64,000 bases of DNA from positions 18,601,379 to 18,665,378 of the forward strand of contig NC_064771.1 in assembly GCF_011397635.1 (NCBI RefSeq). Direction: 5' to 3'. The first letter of the stretch is position 1; each line of letters opens with the position of its first letter. Shown here piece by piece: positions 26,745-63,647 of the stretch. The position numbers and the translations under genes are program-made. The notes beneath the pieces were generated by a model, which was not told where the DNA came from, did no database searches, and saw only the letters and a list, made by a program, of their open reading frames with translations. The stretch comes from Epinephelus fuscoguttatus. Its lineage: Eukaryota; Chordata; Actinopteri; Perciformes; Serranidae.

Positions 26745-28025
26745 CCGGTATGACCATGGGCAGATTATATGACAATGGACCCCCGGGTACAGACATGCAG
26801 AAGGCCCCACCACCTCTGCTACACAGGAGCAAGAAACTTTAGCCCTTTTTACACTGCTCTTCAAGTTGTGAATTTCACAATGTTATGCAGCCTCACTGTT
26901 CTGTATCAAAGGTACAATTGCAGAATGAGAGGATAGAGTTGTCTCGCCTTTAAGCTGGCATCAGAGGTAGTAACAGAGCCAGAACGACCTCTGTATAAAT
27001 GGGGCAGCTGTCATGGGTGGCTTCTTACCCCCAGAACAGAGGATGAGATCAGCCGCCTTATAACAGGGACGGTAAATGATTTTTATTGCCATGTTAATGC
27101 CAGTGTTATCGTTCAGAAAGCACTGGAGAGCATATGTTACATGTCACACTACAGGCAGACCCTGTTGTGTTACGAATCACACCGTCACGCCTCTTTTGCT
27201 TCCGTGATGCCGGCATGCTGTTCAAGATCACACACTGGAGCAGCACGATGCCACTGTTTTCTGGCTCTGTGTAAAAATGTAAAGGTGGTATGAAGAAGGG
27301 ACTGCATACCGGCCCTATAGTGTGATCTCTGTGTAAAAGGGGCCACAGACTTTAAAGTCGTTTATTATATTTTTTGTTGTGGTTTTGCATCTCTGTGTAG
27401 TTGTCTTATATCTCCTTCTGGTCATTTTGAGTCTCTTTGCAGTTGCTTTACATCTTTTTGCAGCCATTTTGTGTCTCTTTGTGGCTGTTTTTCCATTTTT
27501 ATAGTCTTTTTGGGTTTCTTTGCATTTATTTGTAGTTGTTTTGTGTCTCTTAGTGACATTTTGAGCCTCCTTGTAGTTGCTTTGCCACTCTTTGTAATCA
27601 TTTTGTGTCTTTTTGTGGTTGATTTTCCCCTTTTCATAGTCTTTGTTAGTCTCTGTGTCCCTTTGCAGCTGTTTTGCATCTCCATGTAGCCAATTAGTGT
27701 CTCTTTGTGGTTGTTTTTCCCCTATTTATAGTCTTTTGGGGTTTATTTGCATTTCTTTGTAGTTGTTTTGTGTCTCTTAGTGACATTTTGAGTCTCATTG
27801 TAGTTGCTTTGCCACTCTTTGTAGTCATTTTTGTCTTTTTGCGGTTGTTTTTCCCATTTTGTAGTCTTTGTGAGTCTCTTTGTGTAGTTTTGCAGCTGTA
27901 TTGCATCTCTGTAGTCATTGTGTCCCTCTTTTTAGTCATTTTGAGTGTCTTGCAGGTTGGAACATGTAGTTTGTAAGGGTCAGAGGGCCCTGGGTCTGTT
28001 GCTAGTAGGCCCATTCAGCAATCCA
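26745..28025. mobile_element. Dispersed element with internal minisatellite, copy 1
   Basis: The left end carries GGTACAGACATGCAGAAGGC and the right end GGCCCATTCAGCAATCCATT. Both ends recur around a similar core at 42610-43105. The core (about 27370-27960) is a degenerate array of units like TTTGTAGTTGTTTTGTGTCTC with a higher-order period of about 228 bp (27505 against 27733). The array keeps frames open on both strands (27422-28014), giving Lys/Thr-rich or Val/Leu-rich translations that are not genes. Confidence 0.65.
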
Positions 28026-39194: not shown

Positions 39195-40310
39195 TTTTTG
39201 CAATTTTTGAACCCTATTTTCATGTTTGTATCTAAGTGACTAATGGAAAGAATAATCTCTGAAATTGCCCCAGTATTGAGTGAGCGTGCTGTGAAATAGG
39301 CTACAATTTAATCGCTTCAGGCACTTATACACCCTCAATTTACGCCACGTTATGCCACTTAAAGACAGAGATTGTAGTCATAAGTGTATGACAACAATCT
39401 CTGAAAAAAGGACCCTAGAGAGAAATTCAACATCTCCTCTTACCTTTCACCAGTCTGGTCTGTGTGTAAACAAGTTTGTGCTGAAGAAGTCTCGTGAAAA
39501 CTTATCCATGTTGTCAAAATCACCTCAATACTTAGCTTTGACTGTGAAAGTCATTTAGATAACACAAAGCTAGGCTAGGCCAGTCCTTCTGTGCCGAGTT
39601 TGCATGTTCTCCCCATGTCAGCATGGGTTTTCTCTGGGTACTCCAGCTTCCTCCCACAGTCCAAAGACATGCAGGTTAATTTGTGACTCTAAATTGTCTG
39701 TAGGTGTGAATGTGAGTGTGAATGGTTGTCTGTCTCTATGTGTCAGCCATGTGATAGTCTGGTGACCTGTCCAGGGTGTACCCCGCCACTTGCCCAATGT
39801 CAGCTGGGATAGGCTCCAGCCCTCCCAGCGACCCCTAGCAGGATAAGCAGTTACGGACAATGAATGAATGAAGAAATGAATAAGCTAGCTTTTTTGTACT
39901 CAGCACCACAAAATATTTCCAGCACTCCTCTCCAACTCTCACTGATGTTTCCACTGTTGTTTTCCCTCCAATAAGTCACTTCTCGCGAGATATCAGAGTG
40001 AGACTTCTCCTTGTGTGAGACTTGGTCACATTAACAAACTGACCAGTGACAGGTAAAGAAAAACATTTCATTTAGGGTCCTTTCTGTAATGTTTTCTTAC
40101 ACTTGAAATAAAAATTTGAGCCTGCTTGTGGCATTAACACTTTTAGTGGATGTAAATTGATGATGCACAATTGCCCGTACTGGTTATACTGCAGCCTGTT
40201 TCTCCAATACAGCTGCAGTGGTGTCACTCAATACTGGTCCAGTTTCAAAAACTGTTTCCATCAGTCACTTAGACACAAAACATGGGTCCAGGTTGAAAAA
40301 CACCTAAGTC
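39195..40310. mobile_element. Foldback element, copy 3 (degenerate)
   Basis: The left part (39215-39420) and right part (40060-40308) are inverted relatives of the arms of copies 1 and 2, recognised by GTATCTAAGTGACTAATGG, the CATAAGTGTATGACAACA segment and ACTTAGACACAAAACATGG. A SINE-like repeat is inserted at 39594-39877. More diverged than the other copies. Confidence 0.65.
39594..39877 (+). mobile_element. SINE-like repeat (5' truncated)
   Basis: Begins within the body (GAGTTTGCATGTTCTCCCC) and ends GGACAATGAATGAATGAAG. Same family as 16036 and 35353. It lacks the tRNA-like head. Confidence 0.75.
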
Positions 40311-41606: not shown

Positions 41607-44566
41607 TCAGTATCTCCTCTGTCTCGGGGAGAAGATGGTGTTGGGGTTGCTGTCTCGTTCCCTCTCCTTCTCCCGCTCCTTCTGGCTGTTCGGCGAGAGG
41701 GCCTCCTCCAGCTTCTTTTCGCTCTTGAAGAGATCTCGACCCGTGCGCATGATGTGCTCCTCGATTTTGCGGTGGCGCTTCATGTCTGACAGCACTTTGT
41801 CCAGCCGGGCTTCTCTTTTCACGGAAGAGCGGGCTGAAGATCCTGAGAGAGAGGAGGAAACAACGTCAATTGGATTTTCCCAAAACCACATAAATACTTT
41901 TACAGTGCTCTCAGAATATAATGAAACCCAACAGTGAAGGGCTAAGCGAAGGTTTTAAAATTCTCAGTGGTGAGTACCTGGTGTTCTGCGTCTGTTCATG
42001 AAGGCATTTTTCGGAGTGGCTTGTGTTTGCTCTTCATCAAAGTCAAACTCAGTCGGTGTTGGAGGCCTGGAAAAGAAAAGTCACAAGGCTTCACATTACG
42101 TGCACACAAAACAAACCCGTCACAGAAGAAATGATGCGAAACAGCTCGTCTATACTGACCTGCGTTCTCTCTCCTCCCTCTCCCTTTCCTTCGCTGCCTC
42201 CTCCTCCTCATCTCTTTCAGGCGAGGGGGTGCGTTCAGGTGTCGGGGGCCTCCTGGGAAGGGGCACAAAGTTCAGTTCCAGCATCTCCCCTTTAGAGAGG
42301 AGCTCATAGAGTCTTTTGATCTCAGCAGGAGGAGGCATCCAGTTTTTGGGGTCCTCCATTTCCTCATCGCTGTACGCAAGCTCCCATTCGCCATCCTCCC
42401 CTGTGGCCTGCTTTCCCTCTTCACCGTCCACCTCTGTGTCTGCCTGAGGTTCATCCTTGTGTGCTTCTCCTTCTGCTGCATCTGTGTCTCCATCTGAGAA
42501 AGCAGCAAAAATGCTTAGAGTCAGTTTAACAAAAGCAGGATTAAAGCACTTCAGTATATTACATGTTGGTCACATTTATATATGTATATACACAGATAAA
42601 TTATACTGTGATGCTGTACTAGCAGGGGCAGGTAATGAGACAATGCGGCCCCTGTGTACAGACATGCAGATGGCTGCACCACCTCTCCCACATACAGTAA
42701 GAGCAAGACCCACAGACAGCATCTATTTGATGTTGTTTTGAATCTCTTTGTAGTCATTACGCTTCTTTCTGTGGTTTTGTGTCTCTTTGTAGTCATTTTG
42801 TGACCTTATAGTCATTTTGAGTCCCTTTGTAGTTGCTTTCCATCTCTGTATAGTCATTGTGTGGATCTTTGTGGTTGTTTTGGCCCTTTTTGTATTTGCC
42901 ATGTGTCTCTTTGCATGTGTTCCATCTCTTTCATCATCTGTTGCATCTATTTGTAGCAACTGTGAGTCTCTTTGTTGTTATATGATTCTTTTTCATTTTG
43001 AGTGTCTCTGATCAGTTCGTGTTTCTTTGAGTGAAGGCCGGGGGGGGCCCTGACACTTTGAGCCCCTGGGCCTGTGCATAGTAAGCCCACTCAGTAATCT
43101 ATGTTCAGTAGGGCTGGGTATCATTATTCAATACCCTCCAAGGTATTGACCTGAAATAACCTTGTACCAAGTAGTACTGAAACTTTTCTAGCAAAACGGT
43201 AACTGCATTCTATCTTATTTGTACCTGTATCTGAATAAAATGACTGTTTGTATAGTTTAGGTCACATGTGATTGACCCACTACAGATGTAGCTACAACCC
43301 ATACAGTAGATGCAAAAACATACAGGCCAGAAGGCGTATTTGACGGAGTAATTTGTACTCATGTTGTCAACAATATGGATTTATCCATGCAAATCAGTTA
43401 TGAAAATTTTAAACAGTTTCAGTACTCATTTTTTTTGCAGTATCAATACACTGGCACCAGCTGGCCTTTCTCACGCTTACTTACTGTTAGTGTTTATTAC
43501 TGTGATTCTGCTGTTCTCTGCTACCAACCAAGAAAAGGAAAGTGGTGGCTGTCAAGTTATAGCCTTATTATATTTATCTTTTAATACACAAAAAAACAAT
43601 TTTAGGTCGTCGTTATCAATTGCCCACATAGTATGTAAAGTAATATCAAATATCTAGGCTATATTTTTAAAGGTATTGTATTGAAGTTATAAATTCCAGT
43701 ATCATGACAACACTACTACACATAAATCATACTGTGACAAGGACGTATTTTTTGTTTCAATACTGGAGGGAGGCTCCATGATTCGATAGTATCATGATAC
43801 TTCAGTCATGATACAATATTATTGTAATTTTAAACGTGTTGCAATGTGCGTAGTACTGCGATAAAACATATATTTACCTTTATATTATTACCTTTTTTAA
43901 ACTGTAAATTATGTCCTAAAGGAAAACTGTCAGCATCTGTGTTATCTAGTTTTTAGTCTGTTCATCAAACTTATACCATTTTATTTGCAGCAAAATATAT
44001 GTAGCGGACTGAAAAGGCAACTGACTATTTTATTCTAGTAGGATACCTAAAGTTTAATTTGTATTTGCAATATTAATAATTTATATTAATAATTTATAAA
44101 ATAAAACATCGATACCTGGCACTGTGTGACGTTACGATATTATGATACGATATTTATGCACCATTTTCCACCCTTTCTGCATCAATTTATGGTGTATGTG
44201 TCCTCTGCTACGTTCATGTTTTTATTGGGGGAGACAAATGCACATGCTCTAATACTGAGGGAGATGTGTCTCCTCTTAAAACTCTTACACAACTCTGAAT
44301 AAAGACTTTTTCCTTCATGGTAAAACTTTGTCTACTGTGTGTGCTTTTAAGTTGTGTAGCTGCAGATATTAAATGTCTGTCAGTAATTTGGAGTTACCCT
44401 TTTCATCCTTGGTTGCTGTATCCTCCTCTGTGGCAGCTGTCATCTCTGAGTCCTGGTGCTCTGTGCTGTCCTCTTCCTCTATGACTGCTGCGGGTTTCTC
44501 TGTGTCCTTCACACCCAGAGCCTCTATGCCCTCTCTCAGTGTAGTGTCTGTGGCCTCAGCCTGCAT
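41607..44566 (-). CDS. pagr1: PAXIP1-associated glutamate-rich protein 1 (PA1)
   Basis: Nuclear subunit that pairs with PAXIP1/PTIP in the MLL3/MLL4 (KMT2C/D) H3K4 methyltransferase complex and also acts with PTIP in DNA-damage and transcription roles. Coding exons on the minus strand: 44566-44398, 42493-42160, 42066-41978, 41842-41607; 828 nt, 275 aa (human 254). All donors and acceptors are GT-AG with matching phases. The N-terminus is acidic and diverged. The conserved core is [20 protein letters not shown] then EIKRLYELL (about 93-122) and LPRRPPTPE. Exon 3 gives PTEFDFDEE and RRRTPG. Exon 4 gives [18 protein letters not shown] and ends FSPRQRRY, like human PRQRKY. A Glu/Arg-rich linker follows the core. 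An acceptor ending at 44605 and a donor near 44903 suggest a non-coding first exon at about 44904-45050. Confidence 0.94.
42610..43105. mobile_element. Dispersed element with internal minisatellite, copy 2
   Basis: Lies in pagr1 intron 1. The ends match copy 1 at 26745: GTACAGACATGCAGATGGC on the left and GCATAGTAAGCCCACTCAGT on the right. The short internal array of TTTGTAGTCATTTTGTGTCTC-like units (42735-43030) is less expanded than in copy 1. The Thr/Lys-rich minus-strand frames here are repeat translations. Confidence 0.65.
43110..44170. repeat. Diverged repeat-like DNA in pagr1 intron 1
   Basis: Begins GGGCTGGGTATCATTATTCA and has several ATCATGATAC-like words (43790-43812, 44140-44152), resembling a dispersed fish element with GGGCTGGGTAT ends. 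The right end was not identified. No coding exon seen. Confidence 0.35.
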
Positions 44567-44899
44567 CCTTCCTGCTGCTGCTGGTCAACTCTATAGCCAC
44601 GGATCTGCTAAACACAAGCATGGGTTATGAAAAAGATTATACTGAAACTGAAAGTAGGTGAGATAAAAGTTCTTTGAGTGAGCTAGCCAAAAGTAGTGTC
44701 ATGTCTACAACGTTTAACTGCTAACGTTAGCCTAATGAAAGCTGTTAACTTTGCTGAATGGTAAACAGTAAACAAAGACGCATATTAAACGCATTTTTGT
44801 CCCTTTTTAAGTTAACTAGCGAGCTAACGTCAGGCCTAACCGTCAGCTATTTGTAAACAGCAAATTACAATTAGATAAGATACGTGCCTTAAATTGTCA

Positions 44900-45415
44900 T
44901 TACCGAGTGCCCGGCTTGTCGAGGATCACTGTCGTAGCTAAAAGTTATGTCAAATTATCTTCCCCGGCGAATATAATCACCGAAACTCTCCATGAGACTC
45001 GCTAGAGATAATACACGATAATACAGAGACGTAAACATAGCGCCATTTTGGATCAGAGTGCTGTGTGACGATGTACTCGGTTCTGTTACACTGCGCATGT
45101 CCGCTGATAACACGTCATGTGGATAAACCGTCGACAGCGCGAGCGGCCGGCAGCAGCTGATCTGTTTGTAGTAGAGATCTACTTTGCATGACTTCCTGTG
45201 CGGCGCGCAAACGCACACAGGGCTGAATTCATGTCGGCCGAAATTTTAATAAACGTCTTTAACTTCACTTTTAACGACGATTTCTTATTTTAAAATGTCT
45301 ATAAACATGTTTATACACGTAAAGGTTGAATGTTATATTCGATGTACGAGTAAATCTTTTGAATAAGGGCGCTAGACGTCATATAGGCGCCAATGTTTGA
45401 GCGAGTTCTGATTGG
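44900..45415 (-). promoter_or_regulatory. pagr1: pagr1 promoter / first-exon region
   Basis: Moderately CpG-rich block. On the minus strand it has a YY1-like CAAAATGGCGC site (rc of 45041-45051), an NRF1-like CTGCGCATGTC at 45091-45101, and a CCAAT box at 45411-45415 (CCAAT on minus, in GCCAATCAGAAC). GCTAACGTTAGC words lie downstream at 44717. The CCAAT-box segment is duplicated at 47034-47048 by the LINE insertion. Start site not fixed. Confidence 0.5.
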
Positions 45416-45535
45416 CTGTGGCTGGATGCAGCTGGGGGCAGACAAATACGCACAATAGATTATGGTTGTGTAGTATACAACTATATGTACATACTATACT
45501 ATAGTATATGGAGCAGCAGCAAAAACATCACTACT

Positions 45536-46110
45536 AAAAGTGGAAAGGACAATAATATGGTCTCTCCCTGATATATATCTAGTGGTTAACAAAGTTAAAG
45601 AGATTTCCTGTAGGCTCATACATTACCCTGTCAAATCATTTTCAGGTTCAAGAAAGTCATTGACACCATATGCACATTTTGTAACATGCACCCAGAGACT
45701 GTCTCCCATTTGTTCTGGACTTGCAAACACACTCTGAGTCTGTGGCGAGGTATCTGTCACTTTATATTAGACTAAATCTATGATGCTTTTGTACTTTAAA
45801 GTTTTATATCCATAAATATAAAGTGTTAAAAAGTAAAGCCTCTTTCTGTACTTTTAAAAGGGAAGCAGAATCCTACATCAGGACTTGTGCTCCAAGTTTA
45901 AGATTCTATTAGAGTGGTAATTTATCTTGTGGTATAATTTTATTGCATATCTTTTATTTATCTGTGTCACAATTTGTTTGTAACCCCTGGCATTGTTTGT
46001 CTGTTTCTTTATTGTTCCTTAATCTCTGATCTTCCATTATGTTCTCTCATATTATTGTCTCTATGTTCACAAGGAAATGTGAAATAAAGAATATTAAAAA
46101 AAAAAAAAAA
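45536..46110 (+). mobile_element. L1-like LINE 3' fragment with poly(A)
   Basis: Translates in shifting frames to the ORF2 C-terminal end of fish L1 elements: NKVKEIS..LIHYPVKSF, then CTFCNMHPETVSHLFWTC, the Cys/His cluster. A 3' UTR and AATAAAG...poly(A) follow at 46082-46110. The flanks AAAGTGGAAAG (45537) and AAAGTGGAGAG (46109) look like an imperfect target duplication. Frameshifted and non-functional. Confidence 0.75.
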
Positions 46111-46770
46111 GTGGAGAGACTACAGGGAGACTACAGAGACTATAGGGCATTACAGTTATGTATAGGAGCTATTAAGTCAACCCCCATCAATGCAGCACTA
46201 ATAGAAGCAGTAGAGACACCACTGGAGTTGAGAGGAAGTGGGGAGGAAAACCTAGCTAAGAGTCACTGCAGGAGTGTTGGAAAGACTATGTTCCAGGGGT
46301 GTTGGTTTGGATGGAGAATAGAAGAAAGAATGAGGACATATAGAATTGAGGCATCAGAGATCACCAGATCCACCCCGGTAAGTAGCACCTTTGTGCCTTT
46401 TCCCAGGAGTAAAGACAGACAAGAGTATTTAGGAAAAGTCAAGTGAAAGGTAAATGAGTGAAGTAGGAGTTAAAACAAGTGTAAGATCAAGGAATAATTA
46501 TTGCAATTATCTTAAAACCCACACGGATGGCTCTAAGAATAAACAGGAGTGTGTTGGAGACAGTGTGTATATCCCTAGGTTTAAAATGTCTGCTTCCAAA
46601 AGACTGTCTGACCAGTTATCTGTGTATACAACAGAACTATTGGCAGCCATTATTGCTTTACATTGGGTTGAAGAGGTCAGGCCTGATAGGATGGTGGTGT
46701 GCACAGACTCATCAGCTGTTTTGGAAAGCATACAGTCACAACAACTGTCAGAGAAGATTTAATACATATC
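46110..46770 (+). pseudogene. LINE ORF2 remnant: RT C-terminus and RNase H
   Basis: 46139-46446 reads RALQLCIGAIKSTPINAALI then VETPLELR, the thumb region of I-like LINE reverse transcriptases. 46454-46762, in another frame, reads HTDGSK, TTELLAAIIALHW and VCTDSSAVLESIQ, the RNase H domain with catalytic D-E-D positions visible. The part after 46770 is a degenerate C-terminus. Dead copy in sense to kif22. Confidence 0.75.
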
Positions 46771-47033
46771 TAATTGCATTGCACTATGTATGAGATGGAG
46801 AGGGAAAGGTTGAGTAAAATAGTTCTGGAGGCGGGGCAAGAGTGGTATTTGATGGAAAGAGAGGAGGAGGCGGTAAGGGTCACCAGGAAGGCACTTTTTT
46901 TACTTTCTAAAACGACAGAAGAATGTAGGAAATCAGGTAAATTGATATCATGTTATACACTATTGTACAGTAGGTGGCGGTGTGCAGGTAAAGCTCCTTG
47001 CGATCCACCAATAATGGAGAAGAGAAGAAGAAG

Positions 47034-47208
47034 GCGAGTTCTGATTGGTTCGTGGTGGCTTCCGGTTACAGCGCTCCTCATTTGAAAAGGGTTCGGTTAG
47101 ATGTTGAGGGGGGTCCACCGCCATTGTTAAAAGACGGCGTCCGCAATGTTGCCAAAAGTAACATTTGAAAAGTAAAAGTTTTGAACAAGGAGTCCGAAAG
47201 TGATACCG
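47034..47208 (+). promoter_or_regulatory. kif22: kif22 promoter and non-coding first exon
   Basis: Holds an inverted CCAAT (NF-Y) box, CTGATTGGTT at 47041-47050, and a TTTGAA CHR-like element at 47081-47086. The 32 nt between them match the usual CCAAT-to-CHR spacing of G2/M promoters bound by DREAM and MuvB complexes. A YY1-like CCGCCATTGTT lies at about 47119. A donor CCG|GTGAGT at 47209 and acceptor ending at 47506 imply a 5' UTR intron before the ATG at 47532. Motif reading is direct; activity is inferred. Confidence 0.6.
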
Positions 47209-47531
47209 GTGAGTGCTAACGAAACATTAGTGACAGCTCGGTAAAACGGTAACGGACCTTCGCCAGGCGAGTAAAGTTCGTTTGAGAAGAAAGACTAAAC
47301 CGAACGTTAGCTAGCTTGTTGTTAGCCGACTGAAGCTACTGCTGTTAAAGTTAAACATAACTTATCATTGTAGCGATTTGTTTGCGGGAACTCTCAGTTT
47401 ATTTGAAATCTGTCGGTTAACCTCATTTTCAATAAGCTTTAGATGCTTTTGTAAACAGTTAAAACAACAGTTCTGCTCGGCTAACTTGGTTTTTATCGTT
47501 ATCCAGGCCTTTTGTTTTGAGGACTTCAAAC

Positions 47532-50500
47532 ATGGCGCAGCGTGTGGCGGTACAAGATGGAGCAAGCAAGAAGACAGCTAGAGTTCGGGTAGCGGTTCGT
47601 CTGCGGCCCTACATGGGCAAGCTCGATGAGAAAAGCGAGGGCCCGTGTGTCAGAGGCCTGGACGCACAGAATCTGGAAATAATCAACTGGAGAAATGCTA
47701 CAGAAACTGTCAAATACAAGTAGGTGTTCCTGGTATCTTAGCATCTAACTGTCCTTACTCCTGAATTATCTTCTCGTTAATTTTTATAATTATTGTCCAA
47801 CAGCTTTGACGTTTTTCATGGTGAGCAAACAACGCAACAAGACGTTTTCCTCTCATCAGTGAAGCCCATTCTGCCACACATACTGAATGGACAAAATGCC
47901 AGTGTCTTTGCTTATGGACCAACAGGAGCTGGTTTGTTACCCCAATATTTATTTTGTTAAGATATACTTTACTTTGTTGCTTATTAAAGATGGTTGTAAA
48001 GACACATCCAGTCTCCAATTTTTCCTGAACATTTCCTTTAATGACTTTTCGGTATATGAGTGGGATTTTAGATAGGCCTAGTATTATTGTGTTTATTATA
48101 TAATGACATCACTAGTATTCCCATAAACATGTTTTGATTAGAGCACTAATGTTTTTGTTGAGACAGTTTGCTCTGCTCTATTTCCAAAATGCATGTTTTT
48201 TATGTGTGCAACTCACCATGTTTTTTCCCTAGGTAAAACACACACCATGATGGGCAGCTCAGATGAGCCAGGCGTGATCCCCCGCGCTGTTCGTGCCATT
48301 TTCAATATGGTCAAAGCTAAGGATGAGGCTGAAGGATGGGACTACAGTATTGGCATGTCTTATTTGGAAATATACAATGAAAAGGTATGGATTGTTGGCA
48401 GTATTATGTGAGTCGGTAGTTTTATGACTTCTGTTAACGGATAAGAAAGTGAAATAGTGTTATGTTGTAAAGGAGTGAATCAAGGTTGTTACCAATTGTT
48501 CATAATCTGCGTTTTTGAGTTTGTAATTCTGGGCCACACGGTGGTGCAGTGGTTATAGGTTATCTTATTGTTATTTTCCCCTCCCCATGTCAGTGTGGGT
48601 GTTTCCATGTCAGGGTACTTTAGCTTCCTACCACAGTCCAAAGGCCTGCAGGTTCAGATTAAGGTTAATTGGTGATTCTAAAGCAGAACAGCTGATCTGA
48701 GTTAGTTCAGTCAACTCTGAGTATGTCCACTCTGAGTTAAACCGACAATAAAAAGCCATCATCAATGGAGCTCTGACTCCACGATTCAACATGGCAACAG
48801 GTAAATAAAAGACAGCGCCTTCATTTTAATCCAGTGGATGTAAAGATATTAATGCATGTGTAGCAGACGGTGCACGTTTATCTTTAAAAGAAGAGCCTGA
48901 GTCGGAGCGAGGAAAGTGTAAATAAGTTAACCATAAAGTTAATAAAAAAGTTTTATTCAGTGTTGTCCGTTTATTCATCATTTGTCAGACTTACATAATT
49001 CTTAATGAAGATAAAGTGGTGGAATCTGACTGCGTATCAGGCTGTAGATACATTACATTATATTAATATATATTTGTTCAGATTTGATCTGATGAGGAAA
49101 AACACAGGAGGCAGCAACTGAAAAATAGTAAGATTTAAAACATATAGGCTAGGCTATAGATCAAAGACATAAAGACATGACTGTAAACTCACAGTCTGAC
49201 CCAGTAATAATACGTTTGGTGATTTGCACCTGAAAAGACGTTGAGGTTAAAATACAGTAGATTTGAAAATGTTGCACATCTATTTGTATCTTGACTCAAC
49301 AGCATTCAGTGACTTTATTTCAGATACAAATGTAGTAAATTTAAAGACACTGAAATGCTGCACCATTGCTCTCAGAAATATTAACATATAATCCCCAATA
49401 TTAGGCTATTGGAATTATGTTCCATCAGTGCGACCAATGACATCAGTGATAGAGATCATTAGTCATTGATACTACGTGTCTAAAGCTTCATACTGATTTT
49501 TAAAATTTAAATAATTAGATCTACACATTATGTGCAATAAACATGTGGGAGCTGCTCTAACAGACTGACAGTCTGATCCTTGTGCACAGTGTTATAAAAA
49601 ATAATAAATTTAAAAAGGACAGGTTTGATTCTGAGCTGAGGGTGAATTCTCACTGTGTAATATTTGAATGTAAAGACAAAAACCGATGTCCAAAGAAATG
49701 ATTGATGTGCATAAATTCAGTAGCCTAACGTAAGACAGTCCCGAGTAACAAATTAATATCCAGCAGGATTTAGACTGTGACAGACGGTAAATCTCCGCTA
49801 ATTAATGAGCTTCGATACAAGCTTTCACGGACTGAATGAATGAGGAAGTGAAACAGCGTGCAAGAGGGAGGAGACAGAGAAAAACTCAGGGTTTATTGAA
49901 GAAAACCTGTCAGCGAGCAGGTTATGTTCACAGAGTCTGTAACCATGGTGATTGACTTCAGAGTTTCAGTTACCTCTCTTTCTGGGACGGATAACTCAGA
50001 GTTTCCCTCATCTCAGGGTTAACTTACTGAGTTTTCACATAATCCGCTTTCTGGAATACCCCCCAGGAGAGGATCCAAGAGAGGTATGGGCTAAGCCTAG
50101 AAACACCCCTGCGTAAAGCACACGTTAAAAGGGTGGAAAAACAGGCAATTCATTTATTAAATATACTGATAAATATTCATGGTGTTTGCTCATTAACTGC
50201 CCTTTGGCCTCCTGTCATTATGCAAGAGTGGCAGTAGAGTATCCCTGGTGTACCGTGTGAACAAAGTACCAGTAGAGCAATTCTGTCAAAAGCTCATGTC
50301 TAGCATTTATGATACTTAGAAAGAAAAGACTGTCATGCTGCAGTGTTAATATAGTAACATACTGTATACATGTTCAGTTTAAAAGTGGCCATTTCCTGGT
50401 ACATTGTTAGGAAATGGGTAGGCTACAGTGTTTGTATATTTCAATTGGAAATAAAATGCTACGTGCACCTGATTTTTTTTTTTTTTTTTTTTTTAATAAA

Positions 50501-53500: not shown

Positions 53501-56500
53501 ACACCTTCTCATTCAATGCGTTTTCTTTATTTTCATGACTATTTACATTGTAGATTCTCACTGAAGGCATCAAAACTATGAATGAACACATGTGGAGTTA
53601 TGTACTTAACAAAAAAAGGTGAAATAACTGAAAACATGTTTTATATTCTAGTTTCTTCAAAATAGCCACCCTTTGCTCTGATTACTGCTTTGCACACTCT
53701 TAGCATTCTCTCCATGAGCTTCAAGAGGTAGTCACCTGAAATGGTTTCCACTTCACAGGTGTGCCTTATCAGGGTTAATTAGTGGAATTTCTTGCTTTAT
53801 CAATGGGGTTGGGACCATCAGTTGTGTTGTGCAGAAGTCAGGTTAATACACAGCCGACAGGCCTATTGGACAACTGTTAAAATTCATATTATGGCAAGAA
53901 CCAATCAGCTAACTAAAGAAAAACCAGTGGCCATCATTACTTTAAGAAATGAAGGTCAGTCAGTCCGGAAAATTGCAAAAACTTTAAATGTGTCCCCAAG
54001 TGGAGTCGCAAAAACCATCGAGCGCTACAACGAAACTGGCACACATGAGGACCGACCCAGGAAAGGAAGACCAAGAGTCACCTCTGCTTCTGAGGATAAG
54101 TTCATCTGAGTCACCAGCCTCAGAAATCGCAAGTTAACAGCAGCTCAGATCAGAGACCAGATGAATGCCACACAGAGTTCTAGCAGCAGACCCATCTCTA
54201 GAACAACTGTTAAGAGGAGACTGCGCGAATCAGGCCTTCATGGTCAAATAGCTGCTAGGAAACCACTGCTAAGGAGAGGCAACAAGTAGAAGAGATTTGT
54301 TTGGGCCAAGAAACACAAGGAATGGACATTAGACCACTGGAAATCTGTGCTTTGGTCTGATGAGTCCAAATTTGAGATCTTTGGTTCCAACCGCCGTGTC
54401 TTTGTGAGACGCAGAAAAGGTGAACGGATGGATTCCACATGCCTGGTTCCCACTGTGAAGCATGGAGGAGGAGGTGTGATGGTGTGGGGGTGTTTTGCTG
54501 GTGACACTGTTGGGGATTTATTCAAAATTGAAGGCACACTGAACCAGCATGGCTCCTGCAGCGACATGCCATCCCATCCGGTTTGCGTTTAGTTGGACGA
54601 TCATTTATTTTTCAACAGGACAATGACCCCAAACACACCTCCAGGCTGTGTAAGGGCTATTTGACCAAGAAGGAGAGTGATGGAGTGCTGCGGCAGATGA
54701 CCTGGCCTCCACAGTCACCGGACCTGAACCCAGTCGAGATGGTTTGGGATGAGCTGGACCACACAGTGAAGGCAAAGGGGCCAACAAGTGCTAAACACCT
54801 CTGGGAACTCCTTCAAGACTGTTGGAAAACCATTTCAGGTGACTACCTCTTGAAGCTCATGGAGAGAATGCCAAGAGTGTGCAAAGCAGTAATCAGAGCA
54901 AAGGGTGGCTATTTTGAAGAAACTAGAATATAAAACATGTTTTCAGTTATTTCACCTTTTTTTGTTAAGTACATAACTCCACGTGTGTTCATTCATAGTT
55001 TTGATGCCTTCAGTGAGAATCTACAATGTAAATAGTCATGAAAATAAAGAAAACGCATTGAATGAGAAGGTGTGTCCAAACTTTTGGCCTGTACTGTATG
55101 TTGGTGTGTTCTTTATACTGTGACAGTTTTCCTAAATTTAGATGTACAAATTGCAATAAATCACCATGCTTATAGTATCGGCATATATTGAATCTTGCCC
55201 CCATATCATATCACCAGATTGTTGCCAATACACAGGCCTATCATCCACCTGGGTGTCATGTAACCCTCTATAATATAGCTTCTGCTTTATATACGCACCT
55301 GTTCCAGCCTCTGTCTCTTCTGTCCGTGTGTGATTTACCAGACGCTGATGCTGTCAGATCTACTCTGATTGATCAGCTCTTCATCGCAGATATTTGATAG
55401 CCACTCTCTCTGTTTTTTGCAGGTGCTCAAAGATAGGCAGAGGGAGTTTGAGAGCAAGGCTATGCTGTTAAGTCGGTTGGCTGGAGAAAAGTCCAGTGCC
55501 AAACAGGACGCTGCCTTCAAGAACACCACAGCGCCTCTGCAAAGACGACAGGCAACTGCAACAAAAGTGAATAAACAGCAGGCCGTAGTCCAGCCCCTAC
55601 AAGGTCAGTTAGAAACAGATGGAACTTGATAAATGTTTTACCTTTTCACATTTAGATTCAAGTTGCAAGTGCAAAGACTCACTATATTAAGACTAAAGAT
55701 GTGTCAGATAAGACCATCTTTCAGTCGCCCTTGAAAGAGGATGTGCTATATTAAAAAAAGTGACCCTGGGAAAACTTTTGTCCTGTTCACGTTTCCCTAA
55801 AGAGTAGTCACTCACTAATTCCATCATGTTGAATCACTGGAGGTATCGCTGAGCTGCAATGTAATACAAGAGCTCAGTCTACCATATAGGAGCCAGAAAA
55901 TGTATCCAATGACGATGAGGAGGAATTATTTTTAAACCCCTCAGCAGTTTGGGGATTGAGACGGATACCTTGGTACCTGTCTCACGCTTTTGGCTTGGAA
56001 ACGGCACAAGAGCCCAAACAAGATATGAAATTCTACCTGTTTCAAAGCAAAATTTCCCCCTCAGTAAGAATATTTTTTCTTTGTTGACAGATTGGACTCT
56101 AACAGAGAAATATTATGACAGGGTTAGGAGGTTGTTTGATTTCTAATGTGTAGTATTAAGTTATTTAACATTAATTTGTATGTGTTTTCCTCCCCATCAG
56201 TGTCGCAGCTCCACCCTCTTCAGCAGCTTGCAGTCGTCAAGAAACAGTCCGTCTGCGTCAAGAAGAAAGAGAGGAAGCTTTCAGACCAGGTTGAGGTCAG
56301 CATCCGAGCCTCTACTCTGCTGCGCTTAGCTTGACACATCTGCAGAATTGCAAGCGTCAGATACAAGCTGACGTAGTGCATCAGGTTCAATTTGTGGTTC
56401 GTCTCGACAGACGCTGCAAGATCTCAGATTTATTAGGTCAATATTAACCTCCTGTCCAGACCAATGTGGATGAATAAATCTTGACAGTTAAAGATAAAGA

Positions 56501-58868: not shown

Positions 58869-60160
58869 GTCAGTTTGATTTATCTTTATAGCCTCCTCTT
58901 CCCCCTCTGTGTGTGTTAATATATAAGGCTAATTCAAATATCAGTTCACTCATAATCTGATTTAAACACAACAATCCAACACAAGCTGCGTGATTTTTCT
59001 GCTTATCTTTGCAATGTAGCATCCCTCATCCACTGAATTCAAATCACGAGCAGCAGCAGGCTAATTAATGCTACCCCCTCTTCCTCCTCCTCCTCCTCTT
59101 CCTCCTCCACTCGTCCATCCGACTATTCCTCCTTTGTCCTCATCCTTTTCCCCTCTGTCATTTTCTACCTTTTGTTCTACGCCCGGCCACCATATGCCTT
59201 TAGGCTTGTGTACACATGATGGAATAATGGTATGTACACACCTGCACAGAGACTATGGCCGCTGCTATGGTTTCAAAGCAACCTGCCTCCATCTGCCATG
59301 CCTTTGTACTCCCCATGTCATTGTGACCTGCTTTCACTGTTACCTGAGATAGCAGGTCTGCTATTTTAATATGAGGCCTGATTTACAGCCTGAGGGACAT
59401 GACGTGTGTGTGTGTCTCATGTGTTTACCTCGAGTGTGTTTACAGTTCAACATGGCATGAGGAGTTATCAAAAATGAGGATAGATATGATCTGAAGTCAA
59501 AGTGGATTATAAAGAGGCTTATGGTGATATTGAGCCTGGATACAAACTGTAAATCGGCTAAAGCAGAATGTATTTAGGGACTGTATGAGAGCTGTGGAGT
59601 GAGACGCATGGGCTGAGCCTTATGGTTCATCAGCCTGTTTTGAAAAAATAGGCCTGTGACCCTTTTCCCCTGTATTGATATTTTCTCCGGACCTCCCCTT
59701 GACTTAGAAAAGGACACACCACACCCTCCACTGAGTGTCTCCGAATAGCCAAACAGAACATTTGGCACAGCTAGTTTTGCCATCATTAACAAAGAATTTA
59801 ATGTTTTATTCTGATTTAAAGCACTGCACTCCTAACACTAATTTAAAATGATAAAAATGAATAAATATTAAAACGTGATTTAAAAAATGCAACTGAAACA
59901 GATAATATATATTTTTTAATTTAAAAAAATGTTTAATGTGATAACAAGTGAAGACCAGGGCAGGACATAGAAGCAGACAGGATAAAATTATACAAAATTA
60001 GACTGAGACATACAACAAAAACTAAGACAAAGTGAAATATTGAGGATATAGAAGAAAAACAGAAAAACAAGAAAACAAGGAAAACAAAACAAACAATCTA
60101 ATAAATTTTTTTAAAAATATATACAGTCCTCTTCCTGGCCCCCACATTACACACATCCTG
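58869..60160 (+). other. Probable prrt2 5' intron, first part
   Basis: Non-coding; includes a CTCCTCCTCC tract (59075-59110) and A/T-rich sequence (59800-60120). No exon or bounded element recognised. Confidence 0.4.
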
Positions 60161-60167
60161 AACCTTA

Positions 60168-60775
60168 CCATGTGTTTTTGTTGCCTAAACCCAACCATGT
60201 GTTTCTGTTGCTGAAACCCAACCTCGTGTTTTTGTTGCCTAAACCTAAACACGTGTTTTTGTTGCCGAAACCTAACCATGTGTTTTTGTTGTCTAAACCT
60301 AACCTCGTGTTTTTGTTGCCTAAATCTAACCACGTGTTTTTGTTGCCGAAACCTAACCACGTGTTTTTGTTGCCTAAACCTAACCTCGTGTTTTTGTTGC
60401 CTGAACCTTACCATGTGTTTTTGTTGCTGAAACCCAACCACGTGTTTTTGTTGCCTAAACCTAAACACATGTTTTTGTTGCCTAAACCTAAACACGTGTT
60501 TTTGTTACTTCAAACTAACCATGTGTTTTTGTTTTTCCTAAACCTAACCATGTGTTCTTGTTTTTCCTAAACCTAACCACGTGTTTTTGTTATCTAAACC
60601 TAAACACGTGTTTTTGTTACTTCAAACTAACCATGTGTTTTTGTTTTTCCTAAACCTAACCATGTGTTCTTGTTGCCTAAACCTAACCACGTGTTTTTGT
60701 TATCTAAACCTAACAATGTGTTGTGTTGCCTAAACCCAACCACGTCTTTTTGTTGCCGAAACCTAACCACGTGCG
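60168..60775. repeat. 27-bp minisatellite, about 22 units
   Basis: Tandem array of AACCATGTGTTTTTGTTGCC TAAACCT (27 bp) with C/T and A/G variants at a few sites. Two units near 60530-60570 and 60640-60660 carry TTTTTCC variants. Because 27 is a multiple of three, long open frames appear on both strands (60172-60570 +, 60495-60022 -) with 9-residue periods; they are not genes. It lies in the presumed prrt2 5' intron. Confidence 0.9.
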
Positions 60776-62697: not shown

Positions 62698-63647
62698 ATG
62701 GCTGTGAACATGATGCCAGCTCCCACCATTTGGCCGGGAGAGGAACAACCGTCGCTGCTGGACCAGGAGGACACTCTGTCGAGCCAAGCCCCGATCTCTG
62801 TGCCATGCCCACCAGTCAGAGGTGAACCACTCATCCACAGCGGCAGCAGCAGCCCGGTCGGCACACAGCCTCCCCGCAGCAAATCCAAAGGCGAGCTAGT
62901 CATAGTCATCAACGAGAAGCTGAAGAACAGTGAGTTTGACCTCATATTAAGGCAGCGGGTGGGTGGAGGAGGGGGGGGTCATACAGCTGCTTAGTCAGCT
63001 CACTCGGGGAATGTCAAACTCCAGTGCATGAACAAGCTCCACGTAGAGCACACACACATCGTTCCTCCTCCTGTGTTTCAAATATTTGCCCGTCCTTTTT
63101 GTCCCTCATGTGTAGGTAACGGGATCCACCCGGCGCCCGCAGAGAGCACCTCTCCAGTCATCTGCTCTCCTCCCAGAAGACAACACTCCATCTCCTACCC
63201 CCATCACGGCAAGACCAGGAAGGGAAGCAGGGCGAGCTCTATCGGCTACACCGCCTTCTCGCCCCGGCCGTCGCTTTCTCGCCACTCCAGCATCGCCACC
63301 AACCCACCCTTGGACCGGACCAAGGTCAAAGACTACCTCCTTCTGTCCGTGCTGGCCTGCTTCTGCCCCGTGTGGCCCATCAACATTGTGGGATTTGTCT
63401 ACTCCATCATGGTGAGAGCAGGATCTTTTGTTTTTAAATATGCATGTGTATCAAAACCCAAGCTAACAGCTGGTTCGCCCTTCTCTTTCAGTCCAAGAAC
63501 AGCCTCGAGCAGGGAAATCTGGACGGTGCTGTGCGTCTGGGACGCGTCGCCAAGATGCTCTCCATGGTGTCACTAGTAGGAGGGACGGTCATTATCATCG
63601 CCTGCATTGTCAACCTGGCCAGTGAGTGTCCCAAATCTGACCTTTAA
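62698..63647 (+). CDS. prrt2: Proline-rich transmembrane protein 2 (3' end unresolved)
   Basis: Presynaptic dispanin/CD225-type membrane protein that in mammals interacts with SNARE proteins and sodium channels; human loss causes paroxysmal dyskinesia and infantile epilepsy. Exons: 62635-62929 (acceptor at 62634, first ATG 62698), 63116-63411, 63492-63621. Phases agree. The diagnostic C-terminal region is clear: [20 protein letters not shown] then [11 protein letters not shown] (re-entrant segment), [20 protein letters not shown], and a TM helix [18 protein letters not shown]. The N-terminus is much shorter than human PRRT2 (340 aa) and only mildly Pro/Ser-rich. The frame is open upstream of the ATG to 62635, so an earlier start in another exon is possible. 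At 63621 a donor CA|GTGAGT is likely used and the last small exon may lie at or beyond the window edge; without splicing the frame stops at 63647 after SECPKSDL (227 aa). Confidence 0.88.

Follow-up and report, generated by a model that had tools for sequence, protein, structure and literature searches.

In Epinephelus fuscoguttatus a 5'-truncated LINE probably inserted into a CpG-rich divergent promoter shared by pagr1 and kif22. Its target-site duplication carries a CCAAT box, and a second LINE was later nested within the first. We put the probability of this history at about 0.78. The window, that is, the whole stretch of DNA that was analysed, is 64 kb long and all positions are counted from its first base (Table 1).

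Table 1. Features in and around the pagr1-kif22 interval.
Feature	Position	Strand	Basis
pagr1 exons	41610..44584	-	Pfam PAXIP1_C in two exons; 44372-44584 by position and splice signals
Left half of CpG-rich promoter island	44700..45415	.	o/e 1.57 over 45001-45415
Likely non-coding pagr1 first exon and start region	44904..45060	-	motif scan; splice donor by eye
YY1-like CCAAAATGGCGC	45040-45051	-	motif scan; pagr1 start region
NRF1-like TGCGCA, just upstream of pagr1 start region	45092-45097		motif scan
CRE-like TAGACGTCAT (45373-45382) and forward CCAAT (45390-45394)	45373..45394	+	sequence; motif scan
5' copy of target-site duplication	45401..45415	+	ATTGG at 45411-45415
Outer LINE, 5'-truncated, with (GAA)n tail and RNase H piece; holds the nested LINE	45416..47033	+	genome copies and Pfam
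5' copy of nested LINE's likely target-site duplication	45536..45547	+	partner 46107-46118, 11/12
Nested poly-A LINE fragment (zf-RVT), within outer LINE	45548..46106	+	genome copies and Pfam
3' copy of nested LINE's likely target-site duplication	46107..46118	+	11/12 against 45536-45547
3' copy of target-site duplication	47034..47048	+	ATTGG at 47044-47048
Right half of CpG-rich promoter island	47034..47700	.	o/e 1.30 over 47035-47300
CHR-like TTTGAA	47081..47086	+	32 nt after kif22-side CCAAT box (ATTGG 47044)
Likely non-coding kif22 exon 1	47090..47208	+	splice signals by eye; start position predicted

The sequence GCGAGTTCTGATTGG is present in two exact copies, at 45401-45415 and 47034-47048, and these are its only matches in the 64-kb window at up to two mismatches (0.12 expected, and no shuffle gave two). 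An exact 15-mer copy within the preceding 5 kb was found at 443 of the 57,900 positions tested (0.8%, repeats included). The length of the repeat taken alone is thus moderate evidence, and its position at the edges is strong evidence: both copies adjoin LINE sequence (45416-47033) to the base. The recurrence of exact 15-mers lends something to the idea that the repeat arose by chance, or by some rearrangement without a LINE insertion, but the contact of both copies with the LINE and the position of the tail at the 3' end, where the mechanism would place it, make such an origin extremely improbable. The element between them is a LINE, 5'-truncated, that carries an RNase H piece and ends in a (GAA)n tail, and the pair is its target-site duplication. 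A perfect direct repeat flanking a LINE-derived block had been noticed in an earlier, sequence-only reading, and this was borne out, each copy being exact and touching an edge of the LINE.

The edges were located from other copies of the LINE in the same genome (1.05 Gb, 26 contigs), of which the best candidates were scored, and the counts are lower bounds. With positions 46900-47200 as the query, at least 40 matches besides the window itself were found. Base 134 of this query is position 47033, and among the 40 matches 35 stop at base 132-135, two are shorter (115, 129) and three are longer (138, 138, 143). All the 27 copies that were fetched and aligned match up to LINE base 1042-1047 of 1047. 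This second query ended at base 1047, and the stop at 47033 therefore rests on the 46900-47200 query and not on the 27-copy alignment. A GAAGAAG-type tail is present in 7/7 copies printed. At the 5' edge 18 loci were aligned, some of them overlapping; seven distinct places begin at LINE base 1, which is 45416, and the copy L038 begins at base 2. Over the 50 bases upstream of this point, 8/8 copies agree with the host sequence of the window at 13-17 positions, which is about chance, and in seven copies other than that of the window the upstream sequence is, by eye, mutually alike and is unlike the host DNA of the window. As the copies start at 45416 and stop at 47033, the LINE comprises this interval and each of its ends touches a repeat. 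A direct repeat exactly at both edges was found together with 5' truncation and an intact 3' tail, which is the pattern of target-primed reverse transcription.

The outer element, which may be a member of the RNase-H-bearing, I-like LINEs, has a Pfam RNase_H match at 46454-46759 (E 2.2e-5; 25.1 bits, under the curated cut-off of 25.8). Near 46760-46764 it lacks 404-447 bp as compared to seven loci and about 1 kb as compared to L040. It resembles 5'-truncated LINE insertions with target-site duplications in its truncated 5' end, simple-repeat 3' tail, short edge repeat and RNase H piece; the difference is that this LINE lies within a CpG-rich gene-to-gene promoter. Edge repeats were also looked for at other copies. 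L038 (contig C19) has an imperfect one with an exact 8-base core, read by eye as AGCTCTATACAG/AGCTCTATGCAG, and at L037, whose 5' edge is uncertain, no edge repeat of at least 8 bases was found. L038 (C19:17736901) and the LINE of the window (45416) are seemingly truncated within 1-2 bases of the same internal position, and their flanking repeats differ by eye. The common truncation point is perhaps due to chance or to a shared short source.

The 1.6-kb block had been described as derived from a LINE. Its LINE origin holds, but it is not a single element and consists of two nested LINE insertions. Copies of the poly-A LINE that reach its ends match from 45551-45557 and up to 46104-46106, and copies of the outer LINE match from 45500 to 45541-45547 (three rows). 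Once the poly-A part is omitted, the outer-LINE copies L037, L040, L041, L044, L046, L047 and L049 align across it, and the poly-A LINE is therefore nested. Its Pfam zf-RVT match (E 2.6e-5; 25.2 bits) is under the curated cut-off of 27.5. In the 3' copy of its likely target-site duplication, the first four A's are indistinguishable from the poly-A tail (46096-46110).

The block separates two genes that were earlier placed head to head, pagr1 on the minus strand and kif22 on the plus strand, and the domain matches confirm this arrangement. Minus-strand exons at 42153-42569 and 41610-41954 match Pfam PAXIP1_C (E 9.6e-24 and 4.6e-10), and the gene, judged by this domain, is pagr1. A minus-strand ORF at 44372-44584 has no Pfam match and is likely the N-terminal coding exon of pagr1, with an acceptor near 44605 by eye. 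The plus-strand exons have a kinesin motor match in Pfam, and their best PDB match is KIF22 (6nje at 1.3e-55, the next match being at 7.6e-29; 2edu at 1.1e-17). The plus-strand ORF at 47532-47720 has no Pfam match and was assigned to kif22 by position. By eye, the putative exon 1 of kif22 has a donor CCG/GTGAGT at 47209, and the intron ends at 47506, ahead of an ATG at 47532. Motifs and splice signals place the putative start sites near 47090 for kif22 and at 45050-45060 for pagr1. It had been suggested that removal of the block would bring the two 5' regions to within a few hundred bases. A distance of 2,304 bp separates the putative exon-1 donors, and it shrinks to 671 bp once the block and one repeat (1,633 bp) are taken out; the starts would be about 400 bp apart, a distance that depends on their predicted positions.

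Two further genes may be present in the window. An ORF with a CD225 domain at 62995-63573 (E 3.9e-9) would fit prrt2, and ORFs at 14.6-20.5 kb, whose weak C2H2 zinc-finger matches all stay below cut-off, would fit maz. We take prrt2, maz, pagr1 and kif22 together to be the neighbourhood known from human 16p11.2.

The distribution of CpG shows how the block sits in the interval. When the 64 kb were scanned for CpG in 400-bp windows at steps of 50, the 16 highest all lay in or overlapped the flanks, with starts at 44651-45201 or 47001-47201. CpGs reach 45402, nine are scattered through the 1,618-bp block, and from 47035 onward their density is high once more; the observed/expected ratios of the block, taken in three parts, are 0.20, 0.07 and 0.19. 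The edges of the island thus coincide with the edges of the insertion, as expected of an insertion inside one island. Joined without the block, the flanks of this one genome would form one CpG-rich island of about 1.3 kb by the o/e ratio only, the G+C of the island being about 0.43-0.47. The left flank, which is host DNA, matches only itself in the genome, and the right flank at 47044-47200 gave no second match in the same genome; as judged on these two segments, an empty second copy of the promoter was not found there. The low CpG of the block was also considered as a sign of decay by methylation and this was rejected, as body matches of the LINE family at eight other loci are equally CpG-poor (o/e 0.04-0.16). 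CpG poverty is a property of the family, and the low CpG of the block is therefore silent on methylation here.

The proposal of an ancestral shared promoter split by the LINE is strengthened by the interruption of a CpG-rich stretch precisely at the repeats, and on the reading of this one genome a former shared promoter is likely. It should be noted here that two touching CpG islands, one for each gene, would resemble one shared island. The LINE could also have hit a spacer between two close but independent promoters, with nothing functional being split. Such an arrangement would agree with the putative pagr1 start region and its YY1- and NRF1-like motifs lying about 350 bp from the repeat, and with the CCAAT and TTTGAA of kif22 being wholly on the kif22 side. 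However, CpG is dense right up to both repeats, no CpG-poor spacer remains, and with the block taken out only about 400 bp would separate the predicted starts. A mere spacer is a possible but doubtful target.

Both copies of the repeat are full matches to RRCCAATSRS, presumably the NF-Y-type CCAAT consensus, which was used for the site scan and has 11 sites in the 64 kb. On the minus strand the 3' copy reads AACCAATCAG and the 5' copy AGCCAATCAG, and the outer AG of the latter is supplied by the first two bases of the LINE. The duplicated target was said to contain a full NF-Y site; both copies fit, but the case is weaker for the 5' copy with its LINE-derived outer bases. On the kif22 side, the CCAAT box and the CHR-like TTTGAA near the putative start would be fitting for the layout of a G2/M gene promoter. 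The usual CCAAT-CHR spacing is near 32-33 nt. When a CCAAT box and a TTTGAA hexamer were searched for together (either orientation, 28-36 nt, either side), two pairs were found in the window, the other one at 40204. In the open-licence literature, among the matches listed, a stated value for the spacing was not found, and the available parts of PMC4747163 and PMC3641139 gave none. TTTGAA is described as the canonical CHR in a paper reporting 210 CHR/DREAM targets, and human KIF22 appears in its gene table (PMC4705690). For G2/M promoters, CCAAT elements are reported to act in cooperation with CDE-CHR elements (PMC7793273), and in the Ki-67 promoter mutation of the CCAAT reduced activity, with cell-cycle control unchanged (PMC8629999). 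As in the G2/M promoters described in these sources (PMC4705690, PMC7793273), a CCAAT followed by TTTGAA lies here just 5' of a mitotic kinesin gene; the difference is that binding of NF-Y and DREAM at this kif22 is a prediction from motifs.

The pagr1-side copy of the repeat is about 350 bp from the predicted pagr1 start. The motif TAGACGTCAT (45373), which we take to be CRE-like, and a CCAAT (45390) lie on the same side; before the insertion they would have been near kif22, and they are now 1.6 kb further from it. Since this CCAAT stays on the pagr1 side, pagr1 would retain a CCAAT even without the duplication. In the start region of pagr1, CCAAAATGGCGC is presumably YY1-like, and just upstream of it TGCGCA is presumably NRF1-like. 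The suggestion that each gene keeps its own copy of the box is therefore lopsided: on the kif22 side the copy is near the putative start, but on the pagr1 side it is far off. A benefit of the duplicated CCAAT to pagr1 is not indicated, because of this distance, the motif bases supplied by the LINE and the other CCAAT at 45390.

Private substitutions of the LINE were counted against four close relatives, in columns with agreement between two or more of them. The LINE of the window has 38 in 442 columns (8.6%; tree branch 0.094), and three of the four relatives have similar private rates. At 8.6% the chance of 15/15 identity under neutrality is 0.067 (0.025-0.149 when the rate is varied across its 95% interval); it is 0.052 at 9.4% and 0.208 at 5.1%. 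The identity of the repeats leans toward constraint. As a proof of selection it was rejected, being too weak (neutral P about 0.07). It could be argued that both CCAAT copies have been kept by selection and that the duplication was adaptive or needed for survival of the insertion, as the repeats are identical over 15/15 bases against about 8.6% private substitutions in the LINE and both fit RRCCAATSRS. But the neutral probability is 0.067, the time since insertion is at most that given by the private substitutions, and the pagr1-side copy is far from the predicted start, with another CCAAT beginning 21 bp away; selection on both copies is thus unlikely. The same low probability is given to a rescue of the insertion by its 15-bp duplication, in which the CCAAT closest to kif22 was copied and one divergent promoter became two self-sufficient ones, both selectively kept. 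If that were true, target-site duplication would be a general route to the lossless splitting of shared promoters.

Insertion of the LINE into one divergent promoter, which is the preferred reading, would have proceeded as follows. pagr1 and kif22 would have been head to head over a CpG-rich promoter of a few hundred bases. The LINE would have landed inside the island by target-primed reverse transcription, with staggered cuts duplicating 15 bp that by chance held a CCAAT box. Truncation at the 5' end would have left a dead LINE fragment, into which the poly-A LINE inserted later. kif22 would have retained the CCAAT and the CHR-like TTTGAA beside its start, enough for an ordinary G2/M layout, and pagr1 its start region about 350 bp away plus the CRE-like site and the upstream CCAAT, and both halves could be active at present. 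The insertion was probably tolerated because it lay outside both core promoters, and the duplication spared the proximal CCAAT box of kif22. This mechanism is standard and ordinary, and the locus is a tidy example of it. It is a clean natural case in which a divergent gene pair was moved apart by an insertion whose duplicated target holds a control motif, and the CpG profile reveals the split from one genome alone. With its states before and after the insertion, it also lends itself to testing what share of a divergent promoter each gene requires.

Bidirectional promoters are defined as those of head-to-head genes less than 1 kb apart (PMC2713978) and are often CpG-island promoters (PMC2777200). 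The present interval resembles them, a medaka set (PMC11676430) included, in its divergent genes, its richness in CpG and the CCAAT boxes between; the difference is that pagr1 and kif22 are now 1.6 kb further apart. The main text of the medaka paper has no mention of kif22 or pagr1. Kalitsis and Saffery (PMC2777200) describe transposable elements hijacking CpG-island promoters, and here too an element has inserted at a CpG-rich promoter. In that paper the element gains transcription and is kept, whereas here it is a truncated, interrupted and CpG-poor fragment. In the open-licence literature, among the matches listed, there was no report of the pagr1-kif22 locus, nor of a target-site duplication splitting a bidirectional promoter.

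Elsewhere in the 64-kb window Rfam gave no match at gathering scores. Tc1-like transposase ORFs are present at 1345-2420 and 54532-54930, with Pfam HTH_Tnp_Tc3_2 for 1345-2100 and resemblance of the translation for the others. At 27427-27909 and 42736-42872 there are degenerate, TTTTGTGTCTCTTTGTAGTC-like repeats about 20-21 bp long. A tandem array with a 27-bp unit, CCTAAACCTAACCACGTGTTTTTGTTG, is located at 60157-60773 (22.7 copies, 82% matches), about 3 kb past the last recognised kif22 exon.
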